Counted from the stretch's first letter, positions 3,628 through 28,652 are shown. The stretch: 52,982 bases of DNA from Micromonosporaceae bacterium (GCA_016926535.1 JAFGOK010000618.1:1-52982); one strand, 5' to 3'. Notes: generated by a model from the letters alone, not told the origin. Translations and numbers: made by a program.

Positions 3628-4853
3628 CACCGCACCCCCGCAGCCACGCGGGGCGTACCGACCCTGTCCACCGCAGCCCGCAGCCGGGAGGGATCCGGAT
3701 GAAGATAGACCTCGGTCGAAGACATGCAGGCGTGCCCCAACAACTGCTGCACCTCGTCGATCCCACCACCGGCATCGACGAGATTGCTGCCGAAGGCGTG
3801 CCGCAGCTGATGCGGGGTGACCAGCCGCCCCAGACCGGCCCGTCGACCCAACGCGGCCATCAACGTGTTGACCGCACCCGGCGGCATCGGCGCCCCCACC
3901 GGCGGGCGAAACAGGTTGACCAGCACAAAATCGCTGGCCTGCGCCGCAGGCACCGTCAGGCGTTCGAACTCGTAGGCGTCGAACGCCTGCACGACCAGGA
4001 AGTCCAACGGCACCACCCGCTGCCGCCGCGACTTGGCCCACGCCCCGTTGACGTTCTCCCGCCGCACCACATGCAGATGCGCCCGTTCCACACCGCAGCC
4101 CAGCAGACCAGAGTCCAGCAGCAGATGCACATCGCAGCGACGCAGCCCGACCACCTCGCTACGACGCAGCCCGGCCCGGGCCATCAGCACCACGATCAGC
4201 CGGTCCCGGGCGCTGCGGCACGCCCGCAGCAACGCCACGATCTCCTCATCGCTGGCCCGGTCGACCGGCTCCTGCGGCTCGCACAACCGGTGACGGGCCC
4301 GCATCCGCCATGCCAGCCGGCCCTCACCGCCACGGGCGGCAACCGGCAGCTCCCGCTCGTCGGCCAACTCGTACAGCAACGACAACAACCCAGCTGGAGC
4401 CGTACCGCAGGTCACCGCGTGCGTCACCAGCCCCCGAACCGCAGCCAGGACCCCGTTGACCCGCCGCTCCCGGCGCACCGGGTCCATCCCAGGACCGACC
4501 AGCACCTGCCCGCCACCGGCCGGCGCGTCGATCCCGCTGACCGCCGGGCCGGCATGCCGCAACCAGACGATGAACAACGCCAACTGCTCGACCCCGGCGA
4601 TCCAGTCCCGGCCGGTACGCCGACACCACCGAAGGAACAACGCGATCCCACCTGCGTACGCCCTCGTCGTCGACTCCGCACCATCGCGGCCGAACCGCAC
4701 ATGACGCAGAAACGCATCCGCCACGTCGACCACGGCCAGGTCCTCGTCCAGCACGGTCCAATACCGCACCCCCGAAGGCATCGTCACCGCGAACGCCCGC
4801 ACCGCCCTCACCCCGTTCTCGTACTCGTACTCGCCAGCAGCACCGACCGCCAT
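3627..4853 (-). CDS. Tyrosine recombinase/integrase
   Basis: R-H-x-x-R...H...Y set: RAGLRRSEVVGLRRCDV, TPHQLRHAFGSNLVDAGG, LLGHACMSSTEVYLHP; N-terminal SAM-like core-binding domain; start GTG 4856 or ATG 4853. Confidence 0.85.
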   Translation of the reverse strand: MAVGAAGEYEYENGVRAVRAFAVTMPSGVRYWTVLDEDLAVVDVADAFLRHVRFGRDGAESTTRAYAGGIALFLRWCRRTGRDWIAGVEQLALFIVWLRHAGPAVSGIDAPAGGGQVLVGPGMDPVRRERRVNGVLAAVRGLVTHAVTCGTAPAGLLSLLYELADERELPVAARGGEGRLAWRMRARHRLCEPQEPVDRASDEEIVALLRACRSARDRLIVVLMARAGLRRSEVVGLRRCDVHLLLDSGLLGCGVERAHLHVVRRENVNGAWAKSRRQRVVPLDFLVVQAFDAYEFERLTVPAAQASDFVLVNLFRPPVGAPMPPGAVNTLMAALGRRAGLGRLVTPHQLRHAFGSNLVDAGGGIDEVQQLLGHACMSSTEVYLHPDPSRLRAAVDRVGTPRVAAGVR

Positions 4854-5488
4854 CACCTACGAGAACGACACACCGAGAACAGCCCCGTTTCGTGCAGCAG
4901 GGCGAAGAAGAACCGGTCCCGCAACCGTGTGCAGGCATCCAGAACCGCCTGCGTCTCGGAGACCGTGAGGATCCGAGGCACCTTCTGCGGGACCTTCAGC
5001 GAGATGGCCCGGCCGCGGTACGACTTGCCCTTGCTGACGTGATGCAGGAACGGCTTCCATCCGCCCCGCCCACCCGTCTTCCACAGGGCGAGTAGGTCGC
5101 CAACCTCAGCGCCGTTGCGAGCATGGTAGGCATAGAACGCACTGACGGCCGCGAGCTTGCGGTTTACCGTCGCCGCGGTGACCTGCGCCACCACCAACGG
5201 CAGCACCGAGACCACCCCGGACCGGCCCGCCGGAGGCAGCTGCAGCCAAGCGACGAACTCCCCGACGTCGTCGAGTCGAGCCTCCCGCCAGTCCAGGCCC
5301 CGCACCCCGAGAAAGCCCCAGAAGTCCTTCAGATCGTGGGCGTATGCCTTCACCGTGTTCGGCGATCTACCGATGTCAGTCAGATAGGCCAGGAACCGGT
5401 CCACCGGGACGACCGCCGTGTCGTCCTCCCCGAGCACCGTCCACGACAGCCTCCCCGAGCCGGGGACCACCACCGAATGCACGAGCAT
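4853..5488 (-). pseudogene. Truncated tyrosine recombinase (N-terminal domain retained, catalytic domain lost)
   Basis: RSPNTVKAYAHDLKDFWGFL...RILTVSETQAVLDACTRLRDRFFFALLHETGL then diverges to FSVCRSRR* where the catalytic Arg region should follow; RBS-like AAGGAGGAG before ATG at 5488. Confidence 0.75.
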
Positions 5489-5584
5489 CGTCTCCTCCTT
5501 GAACAACGTCATAGACAAGGCAGGAGATAACCACGGATGAACCGTCATTCGGGCAGGTGAAGACGCCTGTGATGGACGTCAGAG

Positions 5585-6574
5585 ACACATCAACTGAGGC
5601 TTGAGATAATCGTCCACGGGGCTGCCTGGCAGCACGACGGATCGGCCAAGGGCCGCGACGGGATCGGCCGGGGCAACTGTTTCGTGGTGGTCGGCTTCGT
5701 GGTGGCGGTGCCGTTCATGACCCGACCGGTGCTGCTGCCGATGCTGTTCCGGCTGTATGTGCCCAAGGAGACCCCGTCGAAGGTCGAACTGGCCAGGACG
5801 ATGGTGAATCTGCTGTCCCGGGCCCTGTACCCGCGCCGGATCCACGTGGTGGCCGACGCGCTGTACCGGGGACCAGCGTGGCGGAACCTGCCAGGCAATG
5901 TCACGTTCACCACTCGCCTGTCGGTCCGGGCGGTGCTCTACGGCCGGGCACCGGAGCCGACGGGCAAGCGGGGGCATCCGGCGTGGAAGGGTCCCCGGTT
6001 GGGCACCCCCGACGAGATCGCCTCCAGTGTGGCCTGGCGGACGGTGACGGTGACCCGCTACGGGCAGGTCCGCGAGGTCCTCATCGCCGAGGTCGCCTGC
6101 CTGTGGTGGGGCAGCCTGCACCGCACACCGGTCCGGTTGGTCCTGGTGCGTGACATCGACCGCCGCCGCAAGGACCTGGCCCTGGTCACCACCGATCTGG
6201 CCACCCATGTTGAGGATCTTGTAGCCAGATACTGCGTCCGCTGGTCTATCGAACAGACGATCAAGGATGCGAAAGAGATCATGGGGGCGGGCGACGCCCA
6301 GAACCGTCTCGAGAACGCGGTGAAACGTACCGTGCCGTTCATGATGCTCAACCTGACGATCCTGGTCTGCTGGTACGCCAAGTTCGGCAACGCCGAACAG
6401 GACCTGACCGAGCGCCGTACCTGGGCCCGCTGGTACCGCCACAAGAAGACCATCAGCATCGACGACATGCTCGTCGCCTTCCGCCGGGCCCGGATAACCA
6501 CCGTTGACCCAGCTCAGCCCGTACCCAATCTATTCGACGACATGGCCGTGACCAGCACCGCCGTAGCCGCATAA
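5585..6574 (+). pseudogene. 5'-truncated DDE transposase (IS701/IS4-like)
   Basis: Frame open upstream of the listed start: HGAAWQHDGSAKGRDGIGRGNCFVVVGFVV; VADALYRG; YCVRWSIEQTIKDAKEIMGAGDAQNRLENAVKRTVPF; N-terminus with first catalytic Asp missing and C-terminal end replaced. Confidence 0.65.
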
Positions 6575-7090
6575 CCGAGAAACTTCAGGAGGCAGCGCAG
6601 GGCGGTGTGCAGCCGGTTGGCCTGGCGTTGGGCTGGGGTCAGGTGGTCGCCGCGGGGTTTGCGGAAGCCGGTGGCGACGTCGTCGAGGCCGAGGGAGCCC
6701 AGGCCGGCCAGGACTCCCAGCAATCGGCCGATTTTTTTCGGCATGCCGTGGCGGCGGGCGGCGGTGATGTCGTTGACTTTGCCGGGCAGGGCGGCGGAGG
6801 CCCACAGGAGCCGCCCGTCGGGGGCGCAGACGGTCTGGATGTTGACTCCGTCGATGAGTAGGTATTCCCAGCCCATCTTCGTGGCCGGGCGGGCCACCTC
6901 CGACAGGCGGGGAGCCCGCTGGGCGGGTAGGTCGATGCCTTCGCTGATGATGCGTCGGCAGGTGGCGGTGCTGATGTGGTTGGCCATGGCCAGTTCGGCG
7001 TGGGTGAGGTTGGTGCGCAGGAAGGCCAGGATCAGTGTGGCCTGGGTGGTCGGGTCGAGTTTGCGCCACCGGGAGCGGATCTTCTACCGT
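6514..7090 (-). pseudogene. IS5-like DDE transposase remnant
   Basis: Frame reads RSRWRKLDPTTQATLILAFLRTNLTHAELAMANHISTATCRRII (HTH) then LLIDGVNIQTVCAPDGRLLWASAALPGKVNDITAARRHG; incomplete at both ends, overlapping the convergent transposase remnant. Confidence 0.6.
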
Positions 7091-7960
7091 CGTACGGTGA
7101 TCTTGTTGGCGAGCCAGTCGCGGGTGGACGCGGAGATCGCGACGGCGGCGGCGAAGGTCAGCCAGCGGCTGGCCGGATCGGTGGCCGTGGCCGTGGTCTG
7201 GTAGGAAGGCATGGCGAGGTCTCCGCTTCGAGGGGCGTCTTGGTCGAACCCATCGAAGTTCGGGGGCCTCGTTTCGTTGTGGTGCCGTGACTGGTGTTGA
7301 TCGTTTCGTGTCCGGATCGTGATCTTCTTGGTCTGGCGTCCGGTTCCGGGTCGACCAGGCCGATGATCAAGGATTTGGCCTGCGGCAATCCACAATCAGC
7401 GGTCCCGTCGAAACAAGCGTTGACCTGCGGCAACGCCACGATGAAACGAGCTCAATGCGAACGGAACCGGCCACACCAAACGGCTGGACTACCAGCATGC
7501 CTCTCCACGGGTTCACCGAACACGTACGTTGAGTGAGCTGCGGCGATCTCCGGACACCCAAACGAGTGATGGCGTCGACGCCCGGTATCGAGGCTGATAA
7601 GGTCCACGTTCGTCGCGTTTCAATTCGTTGATCTACTCCCTGTGCTGGATGAATCCGGGGACCGTTGCTGGCTGGGCTCCTAGCCGGGCGTTCTTGGGGT
7701 AACGGTATTGAGGGTCGTGGAATCCCGCAGCGGCTGGGCTTCCGCGCTTCGGGGCTGGCATTTGCGGCAGATTTGCCGACATGACGTGAGTATGGAGGTG
7801 TCCGCATATCGACGCCCGGCATCATGTTGGCGCTCTTCCGACGACCCTGCTCGTTCTTGCTGGGATTTTCTGGGCGGTCGCTGGCGTCGCCTATCTCCTG
7901 CTCGGCCGCAGGCGGCATCAATACCTCACGATTTCGTTTTTCCTCGGATCCCATATTGCT

Positions 7961-10900
7961 GTGGCTTCTGGCTTCCTGCTGAGCGGGTCGACGGACACCG
8001 TGTGGTGGCTGCTGGTGAGCTGCCCGATCTGGGCGCTGCTCGCGTGGTCGGTGTGCCTGCTCAAACGCCAGCTGGGCAACGGTGACTGGACCGACCTTCC
8101 CGGTCCGGCACTGGCCGTGGTCCTCGCCACGAGCCTCCTGCTGGAGTTCGGGGCGCTGCTCCAGGTCAGGTTGGTGATCGTGCCTGATCCCGATGACGGG
8201 TTCGCGTCGGGCCTCAACGCGGAAGCCCTGTCGACCGGATGGGATGTACTTGGCAAACCGCTGCTGATTGTTGCAGGGACGCTCCTGGTGTGCCAGGTCG
8301 TCGCCTCGGCCAGCACCTCGGTCCGCTGGCCGGTCGTTGCGCGGTGGACCGAGCGGATGTTGCGGTCGATCGGCGCGGACTGCCCCGCCGGGCGCGAACG
8401 GCCCGGGGACGTGCGCCTGTGGCACCAGGACGGGGCCGTGTGGGTGCTCGCCAGCCTCAGCCTACTGTTCTTTCTCCTGCCGTACTTTGGCTCCTCCAAC
8501 GCAGGCGCCCGCCTGACCCTGGGACCGGTGGCCTTCGCCGAGTACGGCAAGCTCCTGATGATCGCGGCGCTGGCGCGGACTGCGGCCCTGGAGTACTGGA
8601 AATTCGACGACGGCCGGCCGGAGGTGCTGCGGCTGATCCGGCAGGCGCGCAGTGCGGGCTTGCGCCCGAGGGCGCTGGCGGCGCTCTTCCGGGAGACCGG
8701 CTTCATGGTCTTCCCGCTGGGATTCTTCGCCCTCGTCGCCGTCGCCAGCGCCCTGCGGTCGGACTTCGGCACGCTGATTCCGGCCTTCGCCGCGACCGTC
8801 GGGGTGACATGGTCGGTGACCTCGAACAATGTCAGGCGGGCGCCGTCAGGCGGCCTGAGGTCGACGTTGTCGGCGTATCCGCTGCTCCGGGCGTTCCTGC
8901 TGATGATCGTCGCGGCCTTCCTCGCAGCAGGGCTGTTCGGCGACTACGTCCAGGAGCGGTGGCGGGTCTGGACCGACCCGTGGGCCTATCGCTGGGACAC
9001 GGGATGCGTGGTCGTCGCAGAGCGTGTGCCGGCCCCAACGGTGCCAGCCGGGGCGGCGGCCTGCCAGGAGTCCCTGGCCGCGTACGCCGAGAGTGAGCGG
9101 TCACAGATGTCGCATGTCCTGTCTGCCATCGCCGACGGCGGGTTGTGGGGCAGGGGGCTGCTGGACACGGCCTCCAAGGACCTGCCGGTGTACTCGACCG
9201 ACTTCATCCTCGCCACCATCTGGAGCAAGCTGGGCGGGCTGGTCGTGTTCGCCAGCGCCCTGCTGATCGTCCTGCTGGGCGCTGGTCTGGTCCGGACGTT
9301 CCGGCCGTCGGGGCACGATCGGGTGCCCACCTTCGGCTCGCTGTTCGCGGCTGGATTCGTCGCCATGCTCGTCGGGCAGTACCTGTTCGTCTATGCGGCG
9401 ACCGCGAATCTGATCCCGCATTCTGGTATCCCGGCCCCGCTGCTGTCCCGAGGGGGGCAGTCCACCCTGGCCCTGCTCCTCGGTGTGATCGCGGTGGTCG
9501 TGCTTGGGCTGCGGCAGGGCACGCTGCGTCCGGCCCTGGCAGGCCCGGCCCGCCGCCGGGGCAGGGCAGGGGTATGGATCCCCGCTGCGGCCTGCGCCGC
9601 CATCACCGCGCTGGCCACAGCGGTGGCCTATCCGGCCCCCAGCCCGGTGGGAGGGTTGTGGCCGGCGGCCTACAGCGAGCAGCGCCCGCCGTGCCCGGCC
9701 AGACCCGCCACCGAGGCTGGGCTGACCTCTGCGCCACCCGACCCGGCGCGGTGCTCCACCGACCGGATCGCCTTCAACCGGACCCGCATGGAGATCAGAT
9801 TCGGGGATCGGGTGGGCCTGCGCCAGAACCGGCCGGAGCTGACCTGGACGCCGGAGCACACTGCGGACCTCGGTGGCCTGGTCCCGGAGGATCTCGCCGG
9901 GCTCCTCCGGGTGCGATCCGGGCAGGGCGGGGTCCTGGAGGGGGCCTATGCCTCTGTGGTCAACGGCACCGCCGGCACCAGCCTCGACGAGCGGGTGTCG
10001 GTCACCCGGCGGGACGATCAGGCCGACGGCAACCTCACCCTGACCCTCAGCCCTCGCTGGCAGCACCGCATTGCCACGGCGCTGCGGGACAGCACCTCGC
10101 CGGAGACGGCCCTGCTGGCCGGAGGGGTCGTGGTGCTCGACGCCCGCACCGGCGAGATCCTGGTCAGCGCGTCGGCCCCGTCCAGTGTCGAGGCGCCTTC
10201 CCAGCAGACACTCTCTCAGCAGACAACACCCTCCGACCCGACCGCGGGCGAGGCTGACGACGAGCGGCAGCGGGCCGCCGAGCAGTTCACGCAGCAGCAC
10301 AAGGACTTCGCCACTCGATCTGACGGCGACGGCTATGAACTCGACGATCCCGATCAGAGCAAGGAGACCTGCCGCAGGCAGAATCCCAGCGCCGCCGACC
10401 AGGCCCGCTGCTGGCGATGGTCCTACGTCGACCAGTCAGACCAGGCGCGGGCAAAGGCCGCGTCCGAGGTGGAGATGCGCCGGTACGTCGGCAACGATCC
10501 GTCGGTGAAGCCCTCGGCCCTGCCCTCCCCGACGACGAACCGCGCCCTGGGCAAGGGATACGGCCTCGGCTCCACTTTCAAGGTCATCATCGCCGCGGCG
10601 TACCTGTCGAACGAGGGCACGAGCGCCCAGGACCGCATTGATGCCCCTCGCACGCTGGACCTGGCACCAGGGGTTCCGATCCGCAACGGCGGGGTGCACA
10701 GCACGGCTGCCTGCCCAGGGACCGTCAATGAGAAGATCACCCTGGCTCAAGCCCTGGCCGTCTCGTGCAACACGGCGTTCGTCAAGCTGGCCAGAGACGT
10801 TGTGGGCTGGCCTGCGATCGCCGCGCAGGCCAAGCGGTTTGGCCTGCGCGTGGGCAACTGCAACGGCTCGACGGCCTGGCTGGGCGGTCCGGAGATCGCT

Positions 10901-11458
10901 GAAGGAATCACCCCGGCGATGGGAACCGGCACGTGCGTGCCAGCCACTGTGGACGCCGTGTCCATCGGTAACAACGCCCTGGGCGGGGGAGCGGTCGAGG
11001 GCACCCCCCTCGGCATGGCCACGGTGATGGCCGCCATCGCCAACGGGGGGACCACCCTCCAGCCATACCTGGTCAGCAGCCTGACGAGGCCGGAGACCGC
11101 GCGGCTGGTACCCAGCGCTCCCGCGGCCAGAGTCGCCGCCCTGCCGGCCAGGGCCGCGGCAGAGCTGCGCACCGCCCTCGCAGGGACGGCTGTCGACGGC
11201 ACAGCCAAGGGCCTGCGCGACGCCGTCGGGATGGACCTGTTCGTCAAGACCGGAACGTTCGAGCGGGTGCCGACCGGCACCGCCCTGCCGCGGGGAGAGT
11301 ACGTGCGTGACCACTCCTGGATCGCCGGGTTCGTCGACACTCCCACCGGCCCGGTGGCCTTCGCGGTGGTGGTGGAGGCGCCGGATCAGAAGACGGGATC
11401 GGCCAGAGCGAGGTACCTGGTCAAGGAGATCTGCCAGGCGATGGGAGAGCGGAGATGA
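7961..11458 (+). CDS. FtsW/RodA (SEDS) glycosyltransferase fused to penicillin-binding transpeptidase
   Basis: Polytopic N-terminus with SEDS signatures (ADGGLWGRGLLDTASKDLPVYSTDFILATI; NLIPHSGIPAPLLSRGGQSTLALLL) followed by PBP motifs SxxK (GSTFK), SxN (SCN), KTGT. Reading frame is open back to 7790 with TM-like sequence; see finding about the start. Confidence 0.9.
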   Translation: MASGFLLSGSTDTVWWLLVSCPIWALLAWSVCLLKRQLGNGDWTDLPGPALAVVLATSLLLEFGALLQVRLVIVPDPDDGFASGLNAEALSTGWDVLGKPLLIVAGTLLVCQVVASASTSVRWPVVARWTERMLRSIGADCPAGRERPGDVRLWHQDGAVWVLASLSLLFFLLPYFGSSNAGARLTLGPVAFAEYGKLLMIAALARTAALEYWKFDDGRPEVLRLIRQARSAGLRPRALAALFRETGFMVFPLGFFALVAVASALRSDFGTLIPAFAATVGVTWSVTSNNVRRAPSGGLRSTLSAYPLLRAFLLMIVAAFLAAGLFGDYVQERWRVWTDPWAYRWDTGCVVVAERVPAPTVPAGAAACQESLAAYAESERSQMSHVLSAIADGGLWGRGLLDTASKDLPVYSTDFILATIWSKLGGLVVFASALLIVLLGAGLVRTFRPSGHDRVPTFGSLFAAGFVAMLVGQYLFVYAATANLIPHSGIPAPLLSRGGQSTLALLLGVIAVVVLGLRQGTLRPALAGPARRRGRAGVWIPAAACAAITALATAVAYPAPSPVGGLWPAAYSEQRPPCPARPATEAGLTSAPPDPARCSTDRIAFNRTRMEIRFGDRVGLRQNRPELTWTPEHTADLGGLVPEDLAGLLRVRSGQGGVLEGAYASVVNGTAGTSLDERVSVTRRDDQADGNLTLTLSPRWQHRIATALRDSTSPETALLAGGVVVLDARTGEILVSASAPSSVEAPSQQTLSQQTTPSDPTAGEADDERQRAAEQFTQQHKDFATRSDGDGYELDDPDQSKETCRRQNPSAADQARCWRWSYVDQSDQARAKAASEVEMRRYVGNDPSVKPSALPSPTTNRALGKGYGLGSTFKVIIAAAYLSNEGTSAQDRIDAPRTLDLAPGVPIRNGGVHSTAACPGTVNEKITLAQALAVSCNTAFVKLARDVVGWPAIAAQAKRFGLRVGNCNGSTAWLGGPEIAEGITPAMGTGTCVPATVDAVSIGNNALGGGAVEGTPLGMATVMAAIANGGTTLQPYLVSSLTRPETARLVPSAPAARVAALPARAAAELRTALAGTAVDGTAKGLRDAVGMDLFVKTGTFERVPTGTALPRGEYVRDHSWIAGFVDTPTGPVAFAVVVEAPDQKTGSARARYLVKEICQAMGERR

Positions 11459-12264
11459 GCAAGCCTGAGCTCGAAGGCCGGGTACTGGTCGAGTTTCGCA
11501 AGTGCATCCGGGAGTACTGCTTCCTGGCCAGCCTCGGCGGCCCGAGGGACGGCCAGGGGTCTGACATCCAGGTTCGGGTCATCACGCCCTTCGATCTCGG
11601 CCAGACCTGCCGGGCCGACCTCGACGAGTACGCCAGGAAGGCGGTGGCCGGCCAGCAGCTGGACGCCAGGGTGTTCCTCTACTTCGACTCGACCCCCGGC
11701 GGGGCGTTCGACATCGTCATCCGTCCGGCGGTGCCGGGGCAGCGCTCCCCGGACCCCAATGCCCTGGACCAGCGCACCACCCTGCTCGGCGGGCGAAAAC
11801 CGGACGACCCAGACGATCGGGACGCGGCTGGTGCCGGCCAGGTTCCGACCATCCCTCACCAGCCCACCTGCCGGCAGGTGGGTGAGGGACCCCGGCGGGT
11901 CAGCCTGATCTTCAGGGCCGGTAACCCGGATGACTCGTGGACGTACCCGCTGCTGTCAAGCCCACTGTGGATTCCTCTGGGCCGGGGCATCTGGTCCCGG
12001 CCGGGGCGTCAGGTCCACAGCCTTCCCGATCGTGCCCGGATCGTGCCTCGCGGACCGCTGATCCAGCTCCGCTGTCAGGGCGACGAGGTGGATCTCCGCA
12101 GGTCAGAGCACCGTATCGGCGAGTATCTCGTGTCCGTCGACGGCCAGCAGCTGCACTGCGGCCACACGGCCCGGATCGAGGGGGACGGGACGCTCAGCTA
12201 CTCCTCACTGGACAGCAGGTTGTCCGCTGTCCTGACGTACCAGGTGAGCAGGAGGCCAACCTGA
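11455..12264 (+). CDS. Unknown protein with possible FHA-like C-terminal beta domain
   Basis: ATGA overlap with upstream gene; C-terminal WIPLGRGI...LPDRARIVPRGPLIQLRCQGDEVDL...VSVDGQQLHCGHTARIEGDGTLSY pattern; family assignment tentative. Confidence 0.55.
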   Translation: MSKPELEGRVLVEFRKCIREYCFLASLGGPRDGQGSDIQVRVITPFDLGQTCRADLDEYARKAVAGQQLDARVFLYFDSTPGGAFDIVIRPAVPGQRSPDPNALDQRTTLLGGRKPDDPDDRDAAGAGQVPTIPHQPTCRQVGEGPRRVSLIFRAGNPDDSWTYPLLSSPLWIPLGRGIWSRPGRQVHSLPDRARIVPRGPLIQLRCQGDEVDLRRSEHRIGEYLVSVDGQQLHCGHTARIEGDGTLSYSSLDSRLSAVLTYQVSRRPT

Positions 12265-13664
12265 TGGCACCACAGCAGGCAGACGACCACCTGATCGTCA
12301 AGGTGCGCCGGCGGGGATGGCGAGCGTACCTGGCTGTCCAGCCCCCCACAGAGTATGCGGAGCGGACGGTGACCTTCGGCGTCGCCCCGCTCGGCCCGGC
12401 AGACAACCAGCGGCTGACCATCCGCGCGACCGTGCGCTACACCACCGCGACGAGCACGACGCCTGGCACCTGGCCCCGGTGGCATGCGAAGATCTACCGC
12501 TGCGCCACCCAGGGCGAGGCCGAGGCGCTGCGGACCCATCTCACCGAGCAGGCGACCAAGCTCGACGTCAACCACCTGCTCCCGACCGCAGGGAGCAACC
12601 CGGCCAGACCGCCGTGGGCGATCGTGCCGGTCTTCGTCCGGCGGGGCGATGGCAGGGAGGATCCGAACTCAGCCCCGCCGACCAGCTTCCCGAGCGGGGA
12701 CGAGCAGGAGCAGGTGCGCACCAGCCTGCCCGCGTGGTGCGGCGGGCCGGTCACCAGCCCAGAGCTCTACCTGTTCGCCCTGTCCCCGCAGGTGGACCGG
12801 CTGTCCTGGCAGGACAACGACGACGAGGATCTCAGCCAGCCCAGGGTGGAGCAGCTCGACGACTTCGTCACGCTGGCCGCCGGGCTGGATCTCCTGCACC
12901 AGCGGGGCTGGGTGCACGGCGACATCAAGCCAGACAACGTCTGCCAGGCGGACACCACCGGCTACGCGCTGATCGACGCTGACTCTGCCACCCGGATGAA
13001 CCCGGCGCCGACGGCGCTGCGGATCACCCCGGCGTACGCCTATGGCCCGCTGCGCCAGCACCTCGCTCAGCGGATGGACGGCAGGCGACCCAGGCCCCCG
13101 GACTCGAAGCTCCTGATAGCCCACGACCGGTTCGGGTTCGCCCTGCTGGTCGTCAGCGAGCTCGCCGGCCGGTACCGGGCGGAGGAGCTGGTGTCCGTCG
13201 ACGACGACCCGTCCGACCGCCGCCCGATCGACGACCACGACACGGTGGTGGAATGGCTGAGCCGCTGGTGGGGGCCGCGCTGGAGACCACTGATCGAGGT
13301 GCTGGCCCAGCCGTTCGGCCCTGTGGGCACCCCGGCCGGGTCGATCGAGTCCTACGACCCCTCCGAGCACTGGCTGACTGCCTGGGTCGGGCAGCTGCGG
13401 GCCAGTGCCCAGCCCGTCGACCGGCCGTCGGAGCCGCCGGCGGCGCCCGGCCGGTACGCGGAGGAACTCGACCGGATCAGGGCTGTGGCCGGCGGGCAGC
13501 GGGTGGCCAAGGCGCGGCGGGCGCCTGTCGCCTGGGCCGCGGTGGAGCAGGTGGCCCTCGAAGTGGCGATGCGTGCCTTTCGGAGGTGGGGCGCCGCCTC
13601 GGCGGGGGTCGTGATCGGGATCGTCGCTGTCGCGCTGTTTGGCGCACTGGTGTTGAGGAAGTGA
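12264..13664 (+). CDS. Protein-kinase-like protein with C-terminal transmembrane anchor
   Basis: Catalytic-loop-like GWVHGDIKPDNV (HGD in place of HRD), IDAD in place of DFG, candidate Lys in WHAKIY; C-terminal AAGVVIGIVAVALFGALVL TM; TGATG coupling to upstream gene. Confidence 0.7.
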   Translation: MAPQQADDHLIVKVRRRGWRAYLAVQPPTEYAERTVTFGVAPLGPADNQRLTIRATVRYTTATSTTPGTWPRWHAKIYRCATQGEAEALRTHLTEQATKLDVNHLLPTAGSNPARPPWAIVPVFVRRGDGREDPNSAPPTSFPSGDEQEQVRTSLPAWCGGPVTSPELYLFALSPQVDRLSWQDNDDEDLSQPRVEQLDDFVTLAAGLDLLHQRGWVHGDIKPDNVCQADTTGYALIDADSATRMNPAPTALRITPAYAYGPLRQHLAQRMDGRRPRPPDSKLLIAHDRFGFALLVVSELAGRYRAEELVSVDDDPSDRRPIDDHDTVVEWLSRWWGPRWRPLIEVLAQPFGPVGTPAGSIESYDPSEHWLTAWVGQLRASAQPVDRPSEPPAAPGRYAEELDRIRAVAGGQRVAKARRAPVAWAAVEQVALEVAMRAFRRWGAASAGVVIGIVAVALFGALVLRK

Positions 13665-13665
13665 G

Positions 13666-13950
13666 ATGAGCTGGCTGAGCCAGGACGTGATGCTGGGGAG
13701 ACTGCGCGGATCGTGCCGCCCATCAGAGAGTGTCCAGAAGCGACTGGGGTTTCGCTTTCCCGACTGGATCGAGCGGGGGTCGAAAGTCCCCACTGCGGTG
13801 GAGAGGGACGTCACGGGCGCCCTCATTGAGCAGCTGGAGCGGGCTGACCGGGCGGGATTTCGCTGGGGGGTGTGTCTGGGCGCCGTGCTGGGCCTGCTGG
13901 CTGGCGCGGTGATGGCCGCGCTGGGCGTCGGCTGGACGATGCTGCGATGA
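13666..13950 (+). CDS. Small membrane protein
   Basis: 94 aa, C-terminal hydrophobic FRWGVCLGAVLGLLAGAVMAALGVGW; tightly packed between operon genes (ATGA overlap with next gene). Confidence 0.65.
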   Translation: MSWLSQDVMLGRLRGSCRPSESVQKRLGFRFPDWIERGSKVPTAVERDVTGALIEQLERADRAGFRWGVCLGAVLGLLAGAVMAALGVGWTMLR

Positions 13951-15791
13951 TCTGGCGAAAGCGTCCGGGGAAGCCCCAGGCAGAGCCCCCCAGCGATGGT
14001 CTGTTCAGCCGGTTCGCCGGGACCTGCCCGGTCTGCGGGGCGCCGTTCGGGCCGGTGGAGGTCGAGACCGATCCCTTGAGAGACAACCGGTTCGTTGTCG
14101 CCCCGCCGATGCGGCTGGAGGTGGGAACGCCGGACTACGAGGTCGGCACGTACATGACCAGGCAAGGCGACCGGTACTCGTTCCGGGTGACGATCCTGCC
14201 GGGAAACTATCCCCCGGCCAAGTCCCGGGACCCGCGCTTCTCCCCGAGGGACGTCGACTACTCCTACCTGCTGTGCGGGGGCGGGCACATCTTCCCGGAT
14301 CCTCGGCCGGTCGCAGGGGAGGCCGAGGACCAGGCCGTCGAGGACTGGAACGTGTTCGCCGCCGTCGGGGCACCGGCGGTCGGGAAGACCTATCTCCTCG
14401 TACGCATGCTCGGGCAGAGCCTCGACAGCTTCGATGACTGGTCAGTGGCCAGTGACGGGGGCATGCCCGTGTGGCGATGTGAGCAGAGCCGCTTGGAGGC
14501 CGCCCCACTGCAATCGCGGCAGCAGATGTACGAGCGTACCCGGATGACGGGAGAGGTCATCGACGCGACGGAGATCGGCGGGATGGCGACCCCCTCGCAG
14601 ATCCTGGAGGAGATCTATCCCGAGGCGCTCGAAGAGATCAAGAACCTGGTCGAGAAGACCGCCGTCGAGAGCCGGGACCGGAGCGAGCGGTGGGGCAAGC
14701 AGTTCCGGCAACCGCTGACCGTCCGCACCGAGATCGGCGGAACCCGCGTGTGGACCGGCATCGTCGACCTGCCCGGCGAGGTTTTCGATTCCAGCAAGGT
14801 GGCCAACACCAGGGAGCTGCGGACCCTTCGGGGATTCAATGGGCTGCTGTGGGTCATCGACCCGGTGCTCGCCTCCAATGCCCCCGCCTGGCTGTCGGTC
14901 AGCGGCCGAAGCCAGCAGGAGGTGCTCACCGCGAGCCTGCGGCCGGACTCGGTCGCCCGCGACTCCATCCAGGTGGTCCGCGCCCACCGGGCCAGGATCC
15001 AGTCCGACATCGGTGACCGTCTGACCAGGCCGGGCAATCCCCTGGCCAGCCCGGTGGGTCCGTCCTTGAACATGCTCCTGGCGATCACCAAGTGCGACCT
15101 GATCCACGCCATGCTCGCCAGCGGCCAGCAATCGCTGGCTGGCCTCGGCCGGCCGGGGGTGGTCGTGCGGGGCGGGGCGTCCTACCTGGGACGGATGACT
15201 GCTTTGTGGTCCACGGAGCACGTCACGGTCGACGAGGCCTCGCGGGACCTGATGGAGTACCTGTTCGCAGCAGGCTCTGAGGCACGCAAGCAGCGCTGCG
15301 AGCAGGTCTCGGCAGAGCTCCTGCGACACTACTCGGAGCCGAAGCGGTTCTGGAACCTGATCCACGGCGGGGCCGAGGACACCATCTTCGTTGAGAAGAC
15401 CTCCGACAGCCGGACCCTCAAGCGGCTGAACCTGCGGGTGCCGTCTCTGGCCGGTCACCTCCGGGCGGCTCTGACGCCCGAGAGCGTCGAAGACCTGCTA
15501 TTCCGCGATCTCATCATGTCCGCTGTCGGCTGCGGTATCGGCTTCGGCGTCGGCCAGGACAGCGCGCTGCGCAAGATCCTGCTGGCTGAGTGGATGCGCC
15601 CCAGGGTGTTCCTGTGCTCACCGCTGGGGACCGTACCGCTCCCGAAGGACGGCAGCCTGATCGAGCCCAACACGCACAACGAGCCCTTCCCCGAAGAGGG
15701 AGAGCCCTCGGCCGCCCTGACCCAGCTCATGCTGGCCGTTCTGGAAGGAGCACGGATCCATGGGGCCAACGGATCCTCAGCCACCAGCTGA
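13947..15791 (+). CDS. Zinc-ribbon P-loop GTPase (TRAFAC/double-GTPase-like)
   Basis: CPVC...LLCGGGH zinc-binding residues; Walker A VGAPAVGKTYLL; DxxG (IVDLPGEVF); TKxD (ITKCDLI); paralogous to the C-terminal half of 21925..25614. Confidence 0.75.
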   Translation: MIWRKRPGKPQAEPPSDGLFSRFAGTCPVCGAPFGPVEVETDPLRDNRFVVAPPMRLEVGTPDYEVGTYMTRQGDRYSFRVTILPGNYPPAKSRDPRFSPRDVDYSYLLCGGGHIFPDPRPVAGEAEDQAVEDWNVFAAVGAPAVGKTYLLVRMLGQSLDSFDDWSVASDGGMPVWRCEQSRLEAAPLQSRQQMYERTRMTGEVIDATEIGGMATPSQILEEIYPEALEEIKNLVEKTAVESRDRSERWGKQFRQPLTVRTEIGGTRVWTGIVDLPGEVFDSSKVANTRELRTLRGFNGLLWVIDPVLASNAPAWLSVSGRSQQEVLTASLRPDSVARDSIQVVRAHRARIQSDIGDRLTRPGNPLASPVGPSLNMLLAITKCDLIHAMLASGQQSLAGLGRPGVVVRGGASYLGRMTALWSTEHVTVDEASRDLMEYLFAAGSEARKQRCEQVSAELLRHYSEPKRFWNLIHGGAEDTIFVEKTSDSRTLKRLNLRVPSLAGHLRAALTPESVEDLLFRDLIMSAVGCGIGFGVGQDSALRKILLAEWMRPRVFLCSPLGTVPLPKDGSLIEPNTHNEPFPEEGEPSAALTQLMLAVLEGARIHGANGSSATS

Positions 15792-18357
15792 GATGATGAC
15801 TGTCGTCGAGTGGGCCGACCGGGGAGGCGGCGGGCTGAGCCTGCAACGCGGGACGACAGCGGTGCGCCGGGAGTTCCGGGCGGTCGCCAGCGGGCTGATG
15901 GACCGGGGGGTCGGCCAGCCCTCCGGGGCGATCGGGCCGACCTTCCCGCATCCGGTGTGGAGTTTGCGGCATCTGCGGGTCGATCGGCTGGGCGGGTTCT
16001 GGTGTTTCGCGGTGCAGGGGCGGCACGGCCCGTTCGGGGCCGCCGGCACGTGCCGGTTCGGGTTTCTGCCCGACCAGGTGCCTCCGGGGGACGTGTGGCG
16101 GCTGGGGAACGAGCGGCTGGCTGCGAGCGAGCAGGAGCCCCTGCCAGAGGCTGATCCTGCGGCCCTGGAGGAAGCGGTTGCCGGAGTGCTGGCCGGTCTG
16201 ACGTTTGGCCTGACGACCATCCGGGCGGGGCGGGATCCCGCCCTGGCCGCCCAGGTGATCGGGCGGGTGCTGGCCGGGCTGCCCGCCGGCATCGTGCAGC
16301 GCTGGGTATGGATGACCTGCCCGCTGGGGGCCCTGCCCAATCCGAGAAGGGGGCAGGGGGCGGTGGCTGGGCTGCCTCCGGAGTCCTTCGGGAGGCCGAC
16401 CGCAATCCAGCGTGCTGCCCTGGCCCTGCGCCAGGTTGGCCCGCCTGACCGCAGGGAGCTGACCACCAAGCTGGGCGAGGAGGGCTTCCACGCTCTTGAG
16501 GCACTCGGCCGGCGTATGTGCCAGGGACCTCGTGCTGATCGCTACCAGCAGGTAGAGGCGCGGGAGATGGTAACACTGCTCGACGAGGTGTCTGCCCAGG
16601 AGCGTGCGATCAGCTGGCGGGACCTGCCTGGGCTGCTGTCGCACCGTGACCCCGCGGAGCGGGAACGGATCCTGGAGTATCCGCATCTGGTCGTGCAGTG
16701 GGCCACAGAGCAGCCGAAGGAGGTGATGGACTGGCTGCGGAAGCCTGGGAGTGCCCTGGTCGCTCTGCTGGCCAGGTTGTTTCCAGCTGGTGCTGCGGGG
16801 GCTGCGGGGGGTATGCCCGCTGGCCAGGCGTCTGCGGCCGGTGGGGATGAGCTGCTGGAGGCGCTGTTCCCGGAAGGTGCGACGTGTGATCCGGACCGGG
16901 ACCTGGAATGGCTGAAAGAGCTCAGGGTGGACGTGACGACCCACCCAGCACGGTTTCCCCCGGCGTTCCAGTGGGCCGGTCGGATCATGGCGGGGTCGTT
17001 TGCCGCGATGGCCCGTGGGCCGTGGCAGGTGGACGAGGCGGCGGCGCTCCTGGCGGAGATTGACCGATACCAGGTGTCAGGGCGTCTGGAGCGTGGCTGG
17101 CTGGAGCCGTCCGCGGCGGCGGCGTTCCTGGCGGCCCGGTTCGCGCCCAAGGCCTGCGGCCAGGCTCCCGAGGCGCTGGGGGAATTGCGGCGCTGGACGG
17201 CGGTGCTGGCCGCCGCCCCGTCCGGCGCTCATGGCCGTGATGCAGTGAGATGGGTGGAGGGGCTGCTCAAGGACCTGCGGAAAAACCCGACCTGGCAGGA
17301 GCCTTCGATCCGGGCTGTCATGTATGGCGCGTTCGAGGTCCTCATCGAGCGCAGGGAGTACTTCGAGTCAGACATCAGGCTCCAGCGGCAGTGCGCCGCG
17401 ATCGGGGTCGACGACCAGGCGCCGCAGGGATTGCGGGACTGGATCACACCGGTGTCGGCGCCGGAGCCGCCCAGGCAAGAGCCTGTGGCATACCAGCCGG
17501 AGGCTTCGGGGCGGGGGCTGGACTCGCGGTCGAGGGACCCGTGGCCGGGCAGCTCCCACTCAGAGTTGGGCGGGCAGCACGCCACGACCGACGTCAAATG
17601 CGATGGTGGCTCCGACCCCGGGTATTCGGATGCTTCCCGGTCCACCGGGAGGCACTCGCAGCCGGACAAGATCCATGCCGGGCCGCCGCCCTCTTCTGGT
17701 CCCAGGCGCATCCGGGACGGTGGTCTCGGGCGATGGATTACGGATAATCGGCTGCCGATCGGCGCGCTCGCTGTGACCCTGGTGCTCATGCTGGCAGTGG
17801 GAGGTATCAGCATGGCGTTCCTGGAGCAGCAAGGCCCAGACCAGCCTGCACCGGCTGCCAGTGCCACCGCTGCCAGTGCCCCCTCCGAACAGCGATTCCC
17901 GACCGCTGACCCCACCTCCTCGGTGAGTGAACCAGCAACGGACTCCCCAGGGGAGATCCCGGAGGAGTTTGCATGTCCGACGCCTATGCCAGGGGCTGTT
18001 CTTGAGGTGCTGTTGACGGTGCCGGTGGGGGGCTTCAGCTCCGACAGCACGTCATCGAGTCGGCTGCGCCAGCAGTTCGTCACGGAGTTGCGGAGCATGA
18101 AGCAGCAGAGGTCCGACCTGAACGACGCGACGATCGGGCAGATCATCATCGCCGGGTACGCGGCGGAGCAGGTGTCCGCCTCGGAAGCCGTGGCCAGGGG
18201 AGAGGCCCTGAAGACCGCCATCAGCAACAGACGGGCCGAGGTCTGGAGACTCCCGGAGGGTGCGCCAATCGAGGCGTGCGCCCGGCGCGCTGATCCCGGC
18301 GAGAATCCCGACGGCCGGTACAACCTGCGGGTTGAGGTCGTCTTCCCGGAGTCATGA
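15760..18357 (+). CDS. GTPase-associated-like membrane protein with C-terminal OmpA/MotB-like candidate domain
   Basis: N-terminal VEWADRGGG, IGPTFPHPVWSLRHLR, WCFAVQGRHGPFGAAGTCRFGFLPD shared with next gene; TM IGALAVTLVLMLAVGGISMAFL; C-terminal IIIAGYAAEQVSASEAVARGEALKTAISNRRAEVW. RBS GGAAGGAG before 15760; ATG 15793 also possible. Confidence 0.65.
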   Translation: MGPTDPQPPAEMMTVVEWADRGGGGLSLQRGTTAVRREFRAVASGLMDRGVGQPSGAIGPTFPHPVWSLRHLRVDRLGGFWCFAVQGRHGPFGAAGTCRFGFLPDQVPPGDVWRLGNERLAASEQEPLPEADPAALEEAVAGVLAGLTFGLTTIRAGRDPALAAQVIGRVLAGLPAGIVQRWVWMTCPLGALPNPRRGQGAVAGLPPESFGRPTAIQRAALALRQVGPPDRRELTTKLGEEGFHALEALGRRMCQGPRADRYQQVEAREMVTLLDEVSAQERAISWRDLPGLLSHRDPAERERILEYPHLVVQWATEQPKEVMDWLRKPGSALVALLARLFPAGAAGAAGGMPAGQASAAGGDELLEALFPEGATCDPDRDLEWLKELRVDVTTHPARFPPAFQWAGRIMAGSFAAMARGPWQVDEAAALLAEIDRYQVSGRLERGWLEPSAAAAFLAARFAPKACGQAPEALGELRRWTAVLAAAPSGAHGRDAVRWVEGLLKDLRKNPTWQEPSIRAVMYGAFEVLIERREYFESDIRLQRQCAAIGVDDQAPQGLRDWITPVSAPEPPRQEPVAYQPEASGRGLDSRSRDPWPGSSHSELGGQHATTDVKCDGGSDPGYSDASRSTGRHSQPDKIHAGPPPSSGPRRIRDGGLGRWITDNRLPIGALAVTLVLMLAVGGISMAFLEQQGPDQPAPAASATAASAPSEQRFPTADPTSSVSEPATDSPGEIPEEFACPTPMPGAVLEVLLTVPVGGFSSDSTSSSRLRQQFVTELRSMKQQRSDLNDATIGQIIIAGYAAEQVSASEAVARGEALKTAISNRRAEVWRLPEGAPIEACARRADPGENPDGRYNLRVEVVFPES

Positions 18358-18372
18358 CAGGCAGATGAGCGA

Positions 18373-20274
18373 TTGGCTGATGGTGTGATCATTGTCGAGT
18401 GGGCCGATCGGGGCGGGACGGGGTTCCGGCCGCAGACCGTGGGAGAGCAGGCGCCGCCAGCGTGCTGGGCGATGGCGAGAACACTGCTGGACGACCAGGT
18501 CAGACAGCCTTCCCGGACTATCGGCCCCACCTCGCCGCATCCGGTGTGGAGCCTGAGGCATGTCCGTCTCGGCGACTTGGGCGGGCACTGGTGTTTCGCC
18601 GTGCAGGGCAGGGGCGGCCCGTTCGGGGCCACAGGGATGTGCCGCTTCGGATTCCTGCCGGACGCCCGGCACCCCGCGGAGGCTTGGATGTCCGGAGTCC
18701 TCCGGCTGACCAGCGACGACGTTGTCCAGCCGGACGAGGACACCACGGCGGAAGCCGATCTCGTCAGGGTCCTGCGCGGGGTAGCCCTTGGTATGCGGGT
18801 GGTGTGGGCTGGCGCATCTCCTGCCAGGGCAGCGACAGTGATCGAGCGCCTGCTGCGGACGCTGCCCCCGGCCGTCGCCCGGCAGCGGGTGTGGACGACC
18901 TGCCCGCTGGGAGTCCTGCCTCGGGGGACGCAGGGCATCGTCGCCGGGCTGCCGCCCAGGGCGTTCCGGCGGTCGTTGGCGGTCAACCAGGCAGCCGTCG
19001 CGATTGAGGGCGCGCTGCCACCTCCGGAGCCGAAACAGCAGACGATCCTGGGAGCACAGCGCTATGGCGCCCTGATACACCTGGCCCGCACCCTGACTAC
19101 CGGGGTGGGCGTCGAGGAGTACCGGAACGCCAGCGTCTCGACGGCGGGGGCGCTGCTCGATCTGGTCGCCGCTGACCTGGAGCGGCTGTCGTGGCGGGAG
19201 GTCGCGTCGTGGATCGGCAGCCGCGACCCGGTGAGCTGCGATCGGGTGCTCAATCATCCGGCGCTGGTGCTGGACTGGGCGGGCAGCGCCAGAGACAGCC
19301 TGCTCGCCGTGCTGCGGGAGCGGGGAAGCCCGCTGGCCGTCAGGCTTCCCGCCCTGTTTCCCACGGTCCCGGACCTCGGAGGGGTCGAGCGCGCCGCACT
19401 GATCTTCCAGGTGTTCGGCCCTCGGCAGCGGTGTGATCCGGAGCTCGACAGCCTGTGGCTGCATCAGCTGGGCGCGACAGAGCAGACCTGTCCCAGGATC
19501 TATCCCCGGGCGTTTCGGCTGGCCAGGCAGATCGAGCGTGAGGGGTTCGCAGCGACGGCAGGCCACGAGCTCGGTCTGGACGAGGCTCGGACGCTGCTGG
19601 CTGAGGCGGGCACCTCGCTGGAGCCCGGATGGCTGTCTGCGCCCGAGACGGTCACATTTCTCAAGACCAGGTTTCCCGATGAGGCCGAGGCGTCCGACCT
19701 GCGAGGCTGGGTCGGTCTCCTGGTGGCGGTCGCACCTCAGGCGCACGGGCGGGCCCGAGCTGCCTGGCTGGCAGAGGTACTTGCGACGCTGCACCGCACT
19801 CCTGGCTGGGAGCGACGCGTTCGGGCCGCGATGTACGGCGGGCTGGTGGCGCTCGTCGAGGCCGGGGAGCCCTACCAGCCCCACCAGCAACTGTTCGACG
19901 TGTGCGCAACGATCGGGCTCGATCGCCGGGCACCCCGGGTGCTGCGAACCTGGCGGGACCCCAAGTGCGCCGGCAGCGATGATGCTGCGGGGCTGCCGCT
20001 GCTGGTTGAGGGCAGTGGCGGCGCCGACCCATCGGCCGATGCGACGGCGGGCGTGAAGGGGCCTTCGCCTGCTCGCGCGGCGGGCGCGAGACCGGCTGGC
20101 CGACTCCTGCGGCGCCCGGAACGGCCCGCTCGTGCGACGACCACCGCGGGGCGTGCGGTAGCGACTGACCGGCGAGCGTCCCTGGACGGGCGAACGCTGA
20201 GGATCCCGGCCGCGGTCACCCTGGGAACGGTGATCGTCGTACTGGCAGCGGCCGTGTGGCTATGGTTGCGCTGA
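18373..20274 (+). CDS. Paralogue of preceding GTPase-associated-like protein, C-terminal TM anchor
   Basis: VEWADRGG, IGPTSPHPVWSLRHVR, WCFAVQGRGGPFGATGMCRFGFLPD, VWTTCPLGVLP shared with previous gene; TM AAVTLGTVIVVLAAAVWLWL at the C-terminus; TTG 18373 or GTG 18385 start. Confidence 0.65.
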   Translation: MADGVIIVEWADRGGTGFRPQTVGEQAPPACWAMARTLLDDQVRQPSRTIGPTSPHPVWSLRHVRLGDLGGHWCFAVQGRGGPFGATGMCRFGFLPDARHPAEAWMSGVLRLTSDDVVQPDEDTTAEADLVRVLRGVALGMRVVWAGASPARAATVIERLLRTLPPAVARQRVWTTCPLGVLPRGTQGIVAGLPPRAFRRSLAVNQAAVAIEGALPPPEPKQQTILGAQRYGALIHLARTLTTGVGVEEYRNASVSTAGALLDLVAADLERLSWREVASWIGSRDPVSCDRVLNHPALVLDWAGSARDSLLAVLRERGSPLAVRLPALFPTVPDLGGVERAALIFQVFGPRQRCDPELDSLWLHQLGATEQTCPRIYPRAFRLARQIEREGFAATAGHELGLDEARTLLAEAGTSLEPGWLSAPETVTFLKTRFPDEAEASDLRGWVGLLVAVAPQAHGRARAAWLAEVLATLHRTPGWERRVRAAMYGGLVALVEAGEPYQPHQQLFDVCATIGLDRRAPRVLRTWRDPKCAGSDDAAGLPLLVEGSGGADPSADATAGVKGPSPARAAGARPAGRLLRRPERPARATTTAGRAVATDRRASLDGRTLRIPAAVTLGTVIVVLAAAVWLWLR

Positions 20275-20355: not shown

Positions 20356-21813
20356 TCACAGCGAGCGGCCGTCGTGCTCTTCAAGGTAGGGCTCCGGCTC
20401 GGGCTCTGGCGGGGGAAAGGGCGTGAACATCGGCTCCGGCTGGGGCTCCCCGCGCTTCCCTCGCCCCTTGCGCCAGCCCTGGGGCGGCACTGTCGGGTTG
20501 GTTGCCGCCGCGGCCTGGCGGCGCAGGTCGTCCAGCCGCTGCCGGTGGATAGTCCGTTTCGTGTGGAGCGTGTGCTGCTCCAGCTCGGCCCGGATTCGCT
20601 CATCCTGCTCCGCGTCCAGTTTGGCGCGTCGCTCCCTGGCGTCGGCCCGGAGTTGCTCCGCATGCTCTGCGATCCGGATATCGGCCTGCTCCTTGCGGCG
20701 CAGGATCGTGTCGTACGCGCTGGCGCGCCCGCAGTTCATCAGGAACTTGGTCAGGACAGGCAGCACCTCGATCGACGTGATGAAGATCAGTAGGACAAGG
20801 TAGGCGGTCCGGAGCGTCGAGTTGCGGCTGGTGAGCTTGCTCAACGCGTCGAGCCTGGCCAAAATGCCCGTGTCGTTTCTGGTGCTGGCGCGAAACGAAT
20901 CCTCCTCCTGCTGCTTGAGCTCTTTCAGGCGCGTGAGGTCGGCCGTGGCCTGGGGGAGTCGCTGCTTGGCTGTGGCGCGCTCGTTGCCGGTTGCCGTCTG
21001 CTGCTTGGCCTTGGCCTCGTCCAGCTCCCTCTTGGCGTCGTTCACGCGCTGCTTGATCTCGTCCGCGGCGGCCTGCCGCTGCCGGAACGCGGCGCCGTTC
21101 CCCTTGGTCTTGGTGCCGCAGGTGCCGTCGTACTCGCAGATCGCCTGGTCCCGTGCCTCGGCGTACTGCTGTACCAGGGCGTCGTACTCGGACTGGAGCT
21201 TGGTGACCTCGGCGTCCTGGTCTCCACCTGGGAGATTGGTCCCGTTGGCCAGAGCCTGGAGCTTGGCCACCTCGGTTTCCAGTTCTGGGATGCGGCTGAA
21301 GCGCGTGTCGCTCTGAAGGTCCTGCTCGTGCTGGTTGAGCCGCTTCTGGTGCACGACTTCGAGCTCGGCATTGATCTCGTTCTGGAAGATCCGGAGCACG
21401 AGCGGCGTCGAGATTACGGTACCGATGATCAGCGCCAGCATGAGGCGGGGCAGGACGGCGACCAGGTTCTGGTACCACCGCTCCTGCCGCTGGGCGGCAG
21501 TGACCAACCACCGGTCGAGATTGAGGATGGCCAGGCCCCAGAGGAGGCCGATGGGGATCGTGGCATACCAGGGGGCACGAATTCCCATGCTCAGCGCGAA
21601 CATGCTGGAGCCCGCCGCCATGACAGCCGTGGTCAGGACGACGCCTCCCAGACCCTGGTGCTTGTGGATGTCCCGGGGGGCCTGGGCCAGAGTCTCGGGA
21701 TCCGCGCCGGACAACCAGATGAACGGCCCTCGAAGCCGTCGGCGTGTGTCGTAGTCCTCGCTGGTGATGAGGTCCGGCTCCGCCACTCTCGGACACTCCA
21801 ATCTCTCTGCCAC
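20356..21813 (-). CDS. DUF4407-like membrane protein with long periplasmic/extracytoplasmic coiled coil
   Basis: TM segments GLGGVVLTTAVMAAGSSMFAL, IPIGLLWGLAILNLDRWLV, LMLALIIGTVISTPLVLRIF, long heptad-rich segment, then LVLLIFITSIEVLPVLTKFLM; family resemblance by architecture. Confidence 0.75.
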   Translation of the reverse strand: MAERLECPRVAEPDLITSEDYDTRRRLRGPFIWLSGADPETLAQAPRDIHKHQGLGGVVLTTAVMAAGSSMFALSMGIRAPWYATIPIGLLWGLAILNLDRWLVTAAQRQERWYQNLVAVLPRLMLALIIGTVISTPLVLRIFQNEINAELEVVHQKRLNQHEQDLQSDTRFSRIPELETEVAKLQALANGTNLPGGDQDAEVTKLQSEYDALVQQYAEARDQAICEYDGTCGTKTKGNGAAFRQRQAAADEIKQRVNDAKRELDEAKAKQQTATGNERATAKQRLPQATADLTRLKELKQQEEDSFRASTRNDTGILARLDALSKLTSRNSTLRTAYLVLLIFITSIEVLPVLTKFLMNCGRASAYDTILRRKEQADIRIAEHAEQLRADARERRAKLDAEQDERIRAELEQHTLHTKRTIHRQRLDDLRRQAAAATNPTVPPQGWRKGRGKRGEPQPEPMFTPFPPPEPEPEPYLEEHDGRSL

Positions 21814-25614: not shown

Positions 25615-25617
25615 GAT

Positions 25618-26613: not shown

Positions 26614-26663
26614 CGAGCCTCCAAGAGCTGATCCTGCCTGCCTGCCGATACAGTTGATCCTGT

Positions 26664-28462: not shown

Positions 28463-28523
28463 CGACAGCCTGCGGGCACTCTGGCTCCTGCGGACAGCAT
28501 AGTGGCAAAATATCATGAAGAGC

Positions 28524-28556
28524 TTTCACAATTGGCCGCGAATCAGGCCAGTGAAA
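28524..28556. promoter_or_regulatory. Interrupted inverted repeat in divergent intergenic region (candidate operator)
   Basis: TTTCAC-aat-TGGCC-gcgaatca-GGCCA-GTGAAA; 11 complementary positions with a 3-nt bulge, between VMAP-like gene and the two-TM gene. Confidence 0.35.
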
Positions 28557-28652
28557 AACTATACACGTCGAAACAACGGTCAACCAGGGAATACCACCAG
28601 CGCGGGTACACTACTGCTGCCAGTGACGCGTCGTCCGGGTAGGGGAGTTGGC

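Follow-up and report, generated by a model that had tools for sequence, protein, structure and literature searches.

Pairs of SEDS proteins and class B penicillin-binding proteins (PBPs) are the core wall synthases of most bacteria; the SEDS protein polymerises lipid II and the class B PBP cross-links it. The coupling of polymerisation to cross-linking, and the way in which both are switched on, are under study with artificial fusions of the two partners, and natural SEDS–PBP fusions may also be held by Coriobacteria. Two papers describe engineered RodA–PBP2 chains that polymerise lipid II and bind Bocillin, and with which cell shape is largely recovered (PMC6207328; PMC10449877), and because such fusions work in vivo the one-chain arrangement can work. 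PMC10449877 also states that natural examples of SEDS–PBP single ORFs exist, citing the genome of Rhodococcus sp. RHA1; the fusion alone is therefore not new. A different group of described systems, which comes into question for the genes considered below, is that of the GAP1-N2 DO-GTPases, and Kaur et al. (2020; PMC7159879) mention no RodA, FtsW, penicillin-binding proteins or transpeptidases in connection with these. We found no paper on an operon such as the one presented here in the literature searched, where the conserved signalling module beside the fusion appears to be undescribed.

The locus lies in a stretch of 52,982 nucleotides from a Micromonosporaceae bacterium, referred to here as the window. 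The features needed for the argument are as follows.

4853–5548, upstream of the fusion: integrase fragment
5684–6574, upstream of the fusion: DDE transposase
7790–7960, plus strand: in-frame coding segment ahead of the ORF, whose N-terminal membrane helix recurs in the relatives (alignment, hydropathy)
7961–11458, plus strand: SEDS glycosyltransferase–PbpA-like transpeptidase fusion; the true start is probably upstream, the frame being open from 7790
11455–12264, plus strand: FHA-like protein (FHA by fold search only); its ATG overlaps the stop of the fusion (ATGA)
12264–13664, plus strand: atypical protein kinase with a C-terminal membrane helix; Lys76, HGDIKPDN and DAD are kept
13947–15791, plus strand: zinc-ribbon P-loop GTPase with GAPAVGKT, DLPGE and TKCD
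15793–18357, plus strand: GAP1-like protein A, with a membrane helix and an extracytoplasmic tail
18373–20274, plus strand: GAP1-like protein B, ending in a membrane helix; 39–40% identical to A
20356–21813, minus strand: DUF4407 membrane/coiled-coil protein
21925–25614, minus strand: second GTPase, vWA-like in its N-terminal region and sharing 51% identity with the first
25618–26892, minus strand: MoxR-type AAA ATPase (AAA_5, 4e-7)
26664–28583, minus strand: VMAP with VMAP-C (5.8e-24) and VMAP-M0 (1.2e-8) domains

Domains, catalytic residues, common ancestry, purifying selection and gene order were computed for the fusion. A preliminary description of this DNA had proposed a single-chain SEDS glycosyltransferase–transpeptidase, and the translation agrees with this: the plus-strand ORF at 7961–11458 encodes 1165 residues, and both Pfam domains lie in the one frame and score above their curated cut-offs. 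FTSW_RODA_SPOVE (PF01098) covers residues 382–510 (E = 2e-20; 73.5 bits versus a cut-off of 26.4) and is also matched in the copy of the fusion found in a second genome, G024, while Transpeptidase (PF00905) covers residues 844–1157 (E = 2.1e-29). Pfam gave no match in the fusion to a GT51 domain or to the dimerisation domain PF21922, which is present in the PbpA protein of the same genome. The signatures listed in the preliminary description are all there: TDFI within STDFI, a second SEDS signature, GIPAPLLSRGGQS, at residues 489–501, and the transpeptidase motifs SxxK (STFK, 871–874), SxN (SCN, 935–937) and KTGT (1096–1099). Aligned with proteins of related genomes, 15 RodA and 17 PbpA, these motifs fall on the known catalytic positions. 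The aspartate of STDFI, Asp414, is aligned with the DF of the 15 RodA proteins; it corresponds to the catalytic aspartate of the large extracytoplasmic SEDS loop, Asp262 in E. coli RodA.

NCBIfam and PDB searches place the transpeptidase half nearest to enzymes of the PbpA type, and with a four-sequence profile the PDB search returned M. tuberculosis PBPA at E = 1.3e-34. The preliminary description had proposed structure prediction as a check, and the model of the transpeptidase has M. tuberculosis PBPA as its best fold match (TMt 0.75), with pLDDT mostly above 85 in that part. The model also shows a beta-rich region at residues 610–740, which fits the non-catalytic pedestal that precedes the transpeptidase domain in class B PBPs. 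The SEDS half matches FtsW and RodA in the same NCBIfam and PDB searches and is divergent: PF01098 is matched over profile positions 219–345 of 356 only, and the canonical LTG and S-x-GG are replaced in the fusions by HSG and by SRGG or SRGP. Its model is moderate only, with low confidence in the catalytic loop, and in view of this divergence and of the loop the polymerase activity could be altered or lost. Hydropathy and the model, the latter of moderate confidence, place at least ten long helices ahead of the PBP membrane helix; the last SEDS helix spans residues 499–517 and the PBP helix residues 538–556, with a basic loop of about 20 residues between them.

With respect to the extent of the ORF, the frame given in the preliminary description translates as described but the start at 7961 is probably too late. 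The reading frame is open from 7790, following a stop at 7787, and nucleotides 7826–7960 encode a hydrophobic membrane helix, LLVLAGIFWAVAGVAYLLL; the encoded peptide begins VGALPTTLLVLAGIFWAVAGVAYLLLGRRRHQ and aligns with the N-termini of the relatives, so the true N-terminus of the fusion probably lies upstream of 7961. No in-frame ATG, GTG or TTG is present between the stop at 7787 and 7961. A good ribosome-binding sequence, GGAGGT, is located at 7794–7799 and is followed 8 bases on, a suitable spacing for a start, by ATC in the frame of the fusion. The missing start could reflect real damage, an assembly error of one base or the use of a rare start codon. Directly upstream of the operon, 4853–7204 holds a phage-integrase N-terminal fragment together with DDE transposase remnants.

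The search for other fusions and their neighbours, also proposed in the preliminary description, identified full-length relatives in three other genomes, G024 (41% identity), G045 (43%) and G094 (43%), which with the window's copy makes four fusions from three families. They are about 37–43% identical to each other, apart from the close pair G045/G094 at 78%, and the catalytic Asp, Ser, Lys and Asn and the KTGT motif are invariant in all four. Both halves of the fusion are under purifying selection, as measured on the G045/G094 pair, for which dN/dS is 0.15 in the SEDS core, 0.49 in the transpeptidase and 0.33 overall. In trees of the two halves the four fusions form one clade for each half, apart from RodA/FtsW and from PbpA/FtsI, with support of 100/100 and 100/99; because the branches are long, the order of the groups beyond the fusion clade is not safe. 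These trees are consistent with one old fusion event, which would be the simplest reading.

The fusion is rare. It was found in 3 of the 94 other genomes examined, and the frequencies in the individual samples, which are small and not random, were 0 of 10 other genomes of its own family, 2 of 40 genomes of the order, 1 of 46 genomes of one other family (one per genus) and two of four species of one genus. The genome that carries it also has separate RodA and PbpA proteins in a canonical FhaA–FhaB–PstP–RodA–PbpA cluster (locus L023), as have nearly all of the related genomes whose cluster was fetched; in two of these genomes RodA continued up to the edge of the stretch retrieved. Because of the separate RodA–PbpA pair in its own genome and its occurrence in only 3 of 94 others, the fusion is not a housekeeping enzyme; identity with housekeeping RodA–PbpA was also rejected on the position of both halves outside the RodA and PbpA clades. 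The preliminary description had named a widespread housekeeping enzyme of the lineage as a finding that would refute it, and the samples speak against one. A contig scan with short exact seeds yielded a single match, an ordinary PbpA of Bacillota beside a separate RodA, and is no test of absence. Among plasmid records only partial PBP matches were obtained, no Rhodococcus plasmid matched the fusion, and no relatives of the operon's GTPase or GAP1-like protein were found.

The preliminary description had placed the gene in an operon with kinase-like and GTPase genes, and this is borne out in a form that extends beyond the window. At four loci from three families the fusion is followed, in the same order and on the same strand, by genes for the FHA-like protein, the kinase, the zinc-ribbon GTPase and a GAP1-like protein, and genes of the operon have overlapping start and stop codons. 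The FHA-like protein (11455–12264) matches no Pfam family at thresholds up to E = 10. Its fold search returned FHA domains at the top (probability 1.00, TMt about 0.6, E = 0.003) with a low-confidence model whose mean pLDDT is 46, the C-terminal part reaching 61–81. Homology to FhaA was considered and rejected, as the profile comparison was not significant and there was no Pfam match. In G024 the FHA-like region and the kinase form one ORF (L031:8231-10327), which supports a functional link between the two. The kinase conserves Lys76, H-x-D-x-K-P-x-N and D-x-D across the loci, and the invariant glutamate of helix C was not seen in it. Across the loci the GTPase is invariant for the CPxC and CGxGH metal-binding pairs, GxxxxGK[ST], DLxGE and [TS]KxD; with its N-terminal zinc ribbon and invariant Walker B glutamate (DLxGE) it bears the mark of the DO-GTPases, and it matches no Pfam family. 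The GAP1-like proteins carry a membrane helix towards the C-terminus, and some copies also possess an extracytoplasmic tail. Of the two tandem paralogues in the window, only the first carries the tail after its membrane helix. Neither 15760–18357 nor 18373–20274 gave any Pfam match up to E = 1, GAP1-N2 included, no GAP1-N2 domain was found elsewhere in the same genome, and comparison of the GAP1-like profile with that of a certified GAP1-N2 protein, both shallow, was not significant. No FNIII-repeat component or PP2C was recognised among the neighbours tested. Membership of the GAP1-N2/DO-GTPase families was therefore rejected, since Pfam, the family search and the profile comparison gave no significant match, and for that reason we claim resemblance to these systems and not membership. 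In G045 and G094, relatives of the DUF4407 protein are encoded immediately upstream of the fusion.

We consider that the fusion is probably an accessory, signal-controlled peptidoglycan synthase in one chain, operating apart from the housekeeping RodA–PbpA pair. This agrees with the specialised accessory wall synthase of the preliminary description, which is still the best reading of the sequence data given the rarity of the fusion and the separate RodA and PbpA in the same genome. From these data we infer an enzymatic activity, its regulation by the neighbouring genes and the existence of a signal. The SEDS domain would polymerise lipid II in the membrane; the PBP membrane helix would be reached from it through the basic cytoplasmic loop of about 20 residues, and cross-linking of the new strand would fall to the extracytoplasmic domain of PbpA type. 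Judging from gene order alone, the kinase, the FHA-like protein and the GTPase/GAP1-like pair may control where or when the synthase works, so that it would be switched on, or placed, by a signalling module of its own. A partner would be phosphorylated by the kinase; candidates are the GAP1-like protein and those loops of the synthase that face the cytoplasm. The FHA-like protein might act as a scaffold or read a phosphosite, and the GTPase may form an on/off switch together with the GAP1-like protein, its partner anchored in the membrane.

Two alternatives concern the integrity of the gene. The genome is a draft of 790 contigs that is 82% complete, and the fusion might be an assembly artefact joining two genes, which the preliminary description had named as a finding that would refute it. 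However, the whole fusion recurs, beside the same set of genes, at independent loci in three other genomes, in one case on a contig of 229 kb; since these relatives are full-length, an assembly join and chance are excluded, and we attach practically no weight to this explanation. It is unlikely, too, that the gene is decaying or inactive in this genome, having lost its start after mobile-element activity upstream, with functional copies in the relatives. Such a history would fit the transposase and integrase fragment upstream and the fact that the conserved helix at the N-terminus has no standard start codon, but the frame is open for 3.6 kb without a stop, the catalytic residues are all kept and the downstream genes are intact. 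Moreover, with a GTG start at 7961 the chain would retain ten or more membrane helices ahead of the PBP helix, and one assembly error close to the start could also explain its absence.

The remaining alternatives accept a functional enzyme and differ as to its purpose. The fusion may be the effector or repair arm of an inducible, NTP-dependent conflict or envelope-emergency system of the kind treated by Kaur et al. (2020), responding to attack by building wall and not by killing the cell or cutting nucleic acid; it would rebuild or seal the wall, or divert lipid II, under assault by phage or competitors. The surroundings in the window point in this direction. The operon adjoins a MoxR–vWA–VMAP ternary system at 21925–28583 on the minus strand, the vWA match being weak (VWA_CoxE, E = 0.0057), and the GTPase of that system is the 51% paralogue of the operon's own. 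A defence island follows at 29897–50166, with an N6 methylase, a GajB/UvrD-like helicase, McrC, a McrB-like AAA protein with DUF4357, a DrmMI methylase, a DpdE/DrmD-like helicase with a full-length DpdE match (1684 bits) and a 2080-residue kinase–DEAD helicase–MZB protein that matches the PD-T4-6 and DruE models. The patchy distribution of the fusion and the likeness of the GTPase–GAP1–kinase architecture to GAP1-N2 systems also fit a defence role. In contrast, the operon flanks in G045 and G094 are metabolic-looking (sarcosine-oxidase-like and Rieske-type genes, on a reading of the sequence and not a domain search) and mostly 70–90% identical when the two genomes are compared. Relatives of the VMAP, MoxR or defence genes of the window were found neither in the 40 kb covered at these two loci nor on the G024 contig, which is short (29 kb) and annotated in part. 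Nor do Kaur et al. name a SEDS or PBP effector. As two of the three other loci clearly lack defence surroundings, a defence role is only possible, and we think it unlikely. A developmental synthase for spores, sporangia or hyphal branching under kinase/FHA control, comparable to SpoVE–SpoVD in Bacillus, appears distinctly improbable. The fusion is an extra copy beside housekeeping RodA–PbpA, FHA and phosphatase genes sit with rodA–pbpA in the canonical cluster, and kinase signalling is known to act on wall synthesis at that cluster; but the gene is too patchy for a core developmental gene, since two of the four species of one genus lack it, as do all ten of the other genomes sampled from its own family. 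As a separate observation, the vWA-like protein fused to a zinc-ribbon GTPase at 21925–25614 bridges two system types that Kaur et al. keep apart.

Returning to the fusion as a probable accessory synthase, a natural, old and selected chain of this kind would lend itself to structural and single-molecule studies, as an enzyme in which the two activities already stand at 1:1. The kinase–FHA–GTPase–GAP1-like neighbourhood suggests a self-contained control circuit that can be tested as a unit, and through such a circuit wall synthesis would be connected with GTPase signalling of this kind.

In comparison with known systems, the signalling genes resemble the GAP1-N2 DO-GTPase systems (Kaur et al. 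2020; PMC7159879), the actinobacterial kinase theme especially. Unlike these, they show no Pfam GAP1-N2 match and no FNIII protein or PP2C was recognised; in common are membrane helices, a neighbouring kinase, and a GTPase that has the zinc ribbon and the Walker B glutamate and whose gene is directly followed by that of a large protein. Class A PBPs likewise combine polymerase and transpeptidase in one chain, but their polymerase is GT51, whereas that of the fusion is SEDS and no GT51 was found. RodA and PbpA of the same genome have the same two activities, with FHA genes near, and of the characterised types PbpA comes closest to the transpeptidase half; they are separate genes, however, and the halves of the fusion fall outside their clades. 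The Rhodococcus RHA1 fusion is likewise a SEDS protein and a class B PBP in one ORF of an actinobacterium, likened here by description only, as the available text of PMC10449877 mentions it without gene name, neighbours or function. The engineered RodA–PBP2 proteins (PMC6207328; PMC10449877) have an artificial linker, are built from E. coli housekeeping enzymes and come without a signalling module, but their domain order is the same as here and they demonstrate that one chain can polymerise and bind penicillin. Their topology is kept in the natural fusion by the basic loop between the SEDS helix at 499–517 and the PBP helix at 538–556.
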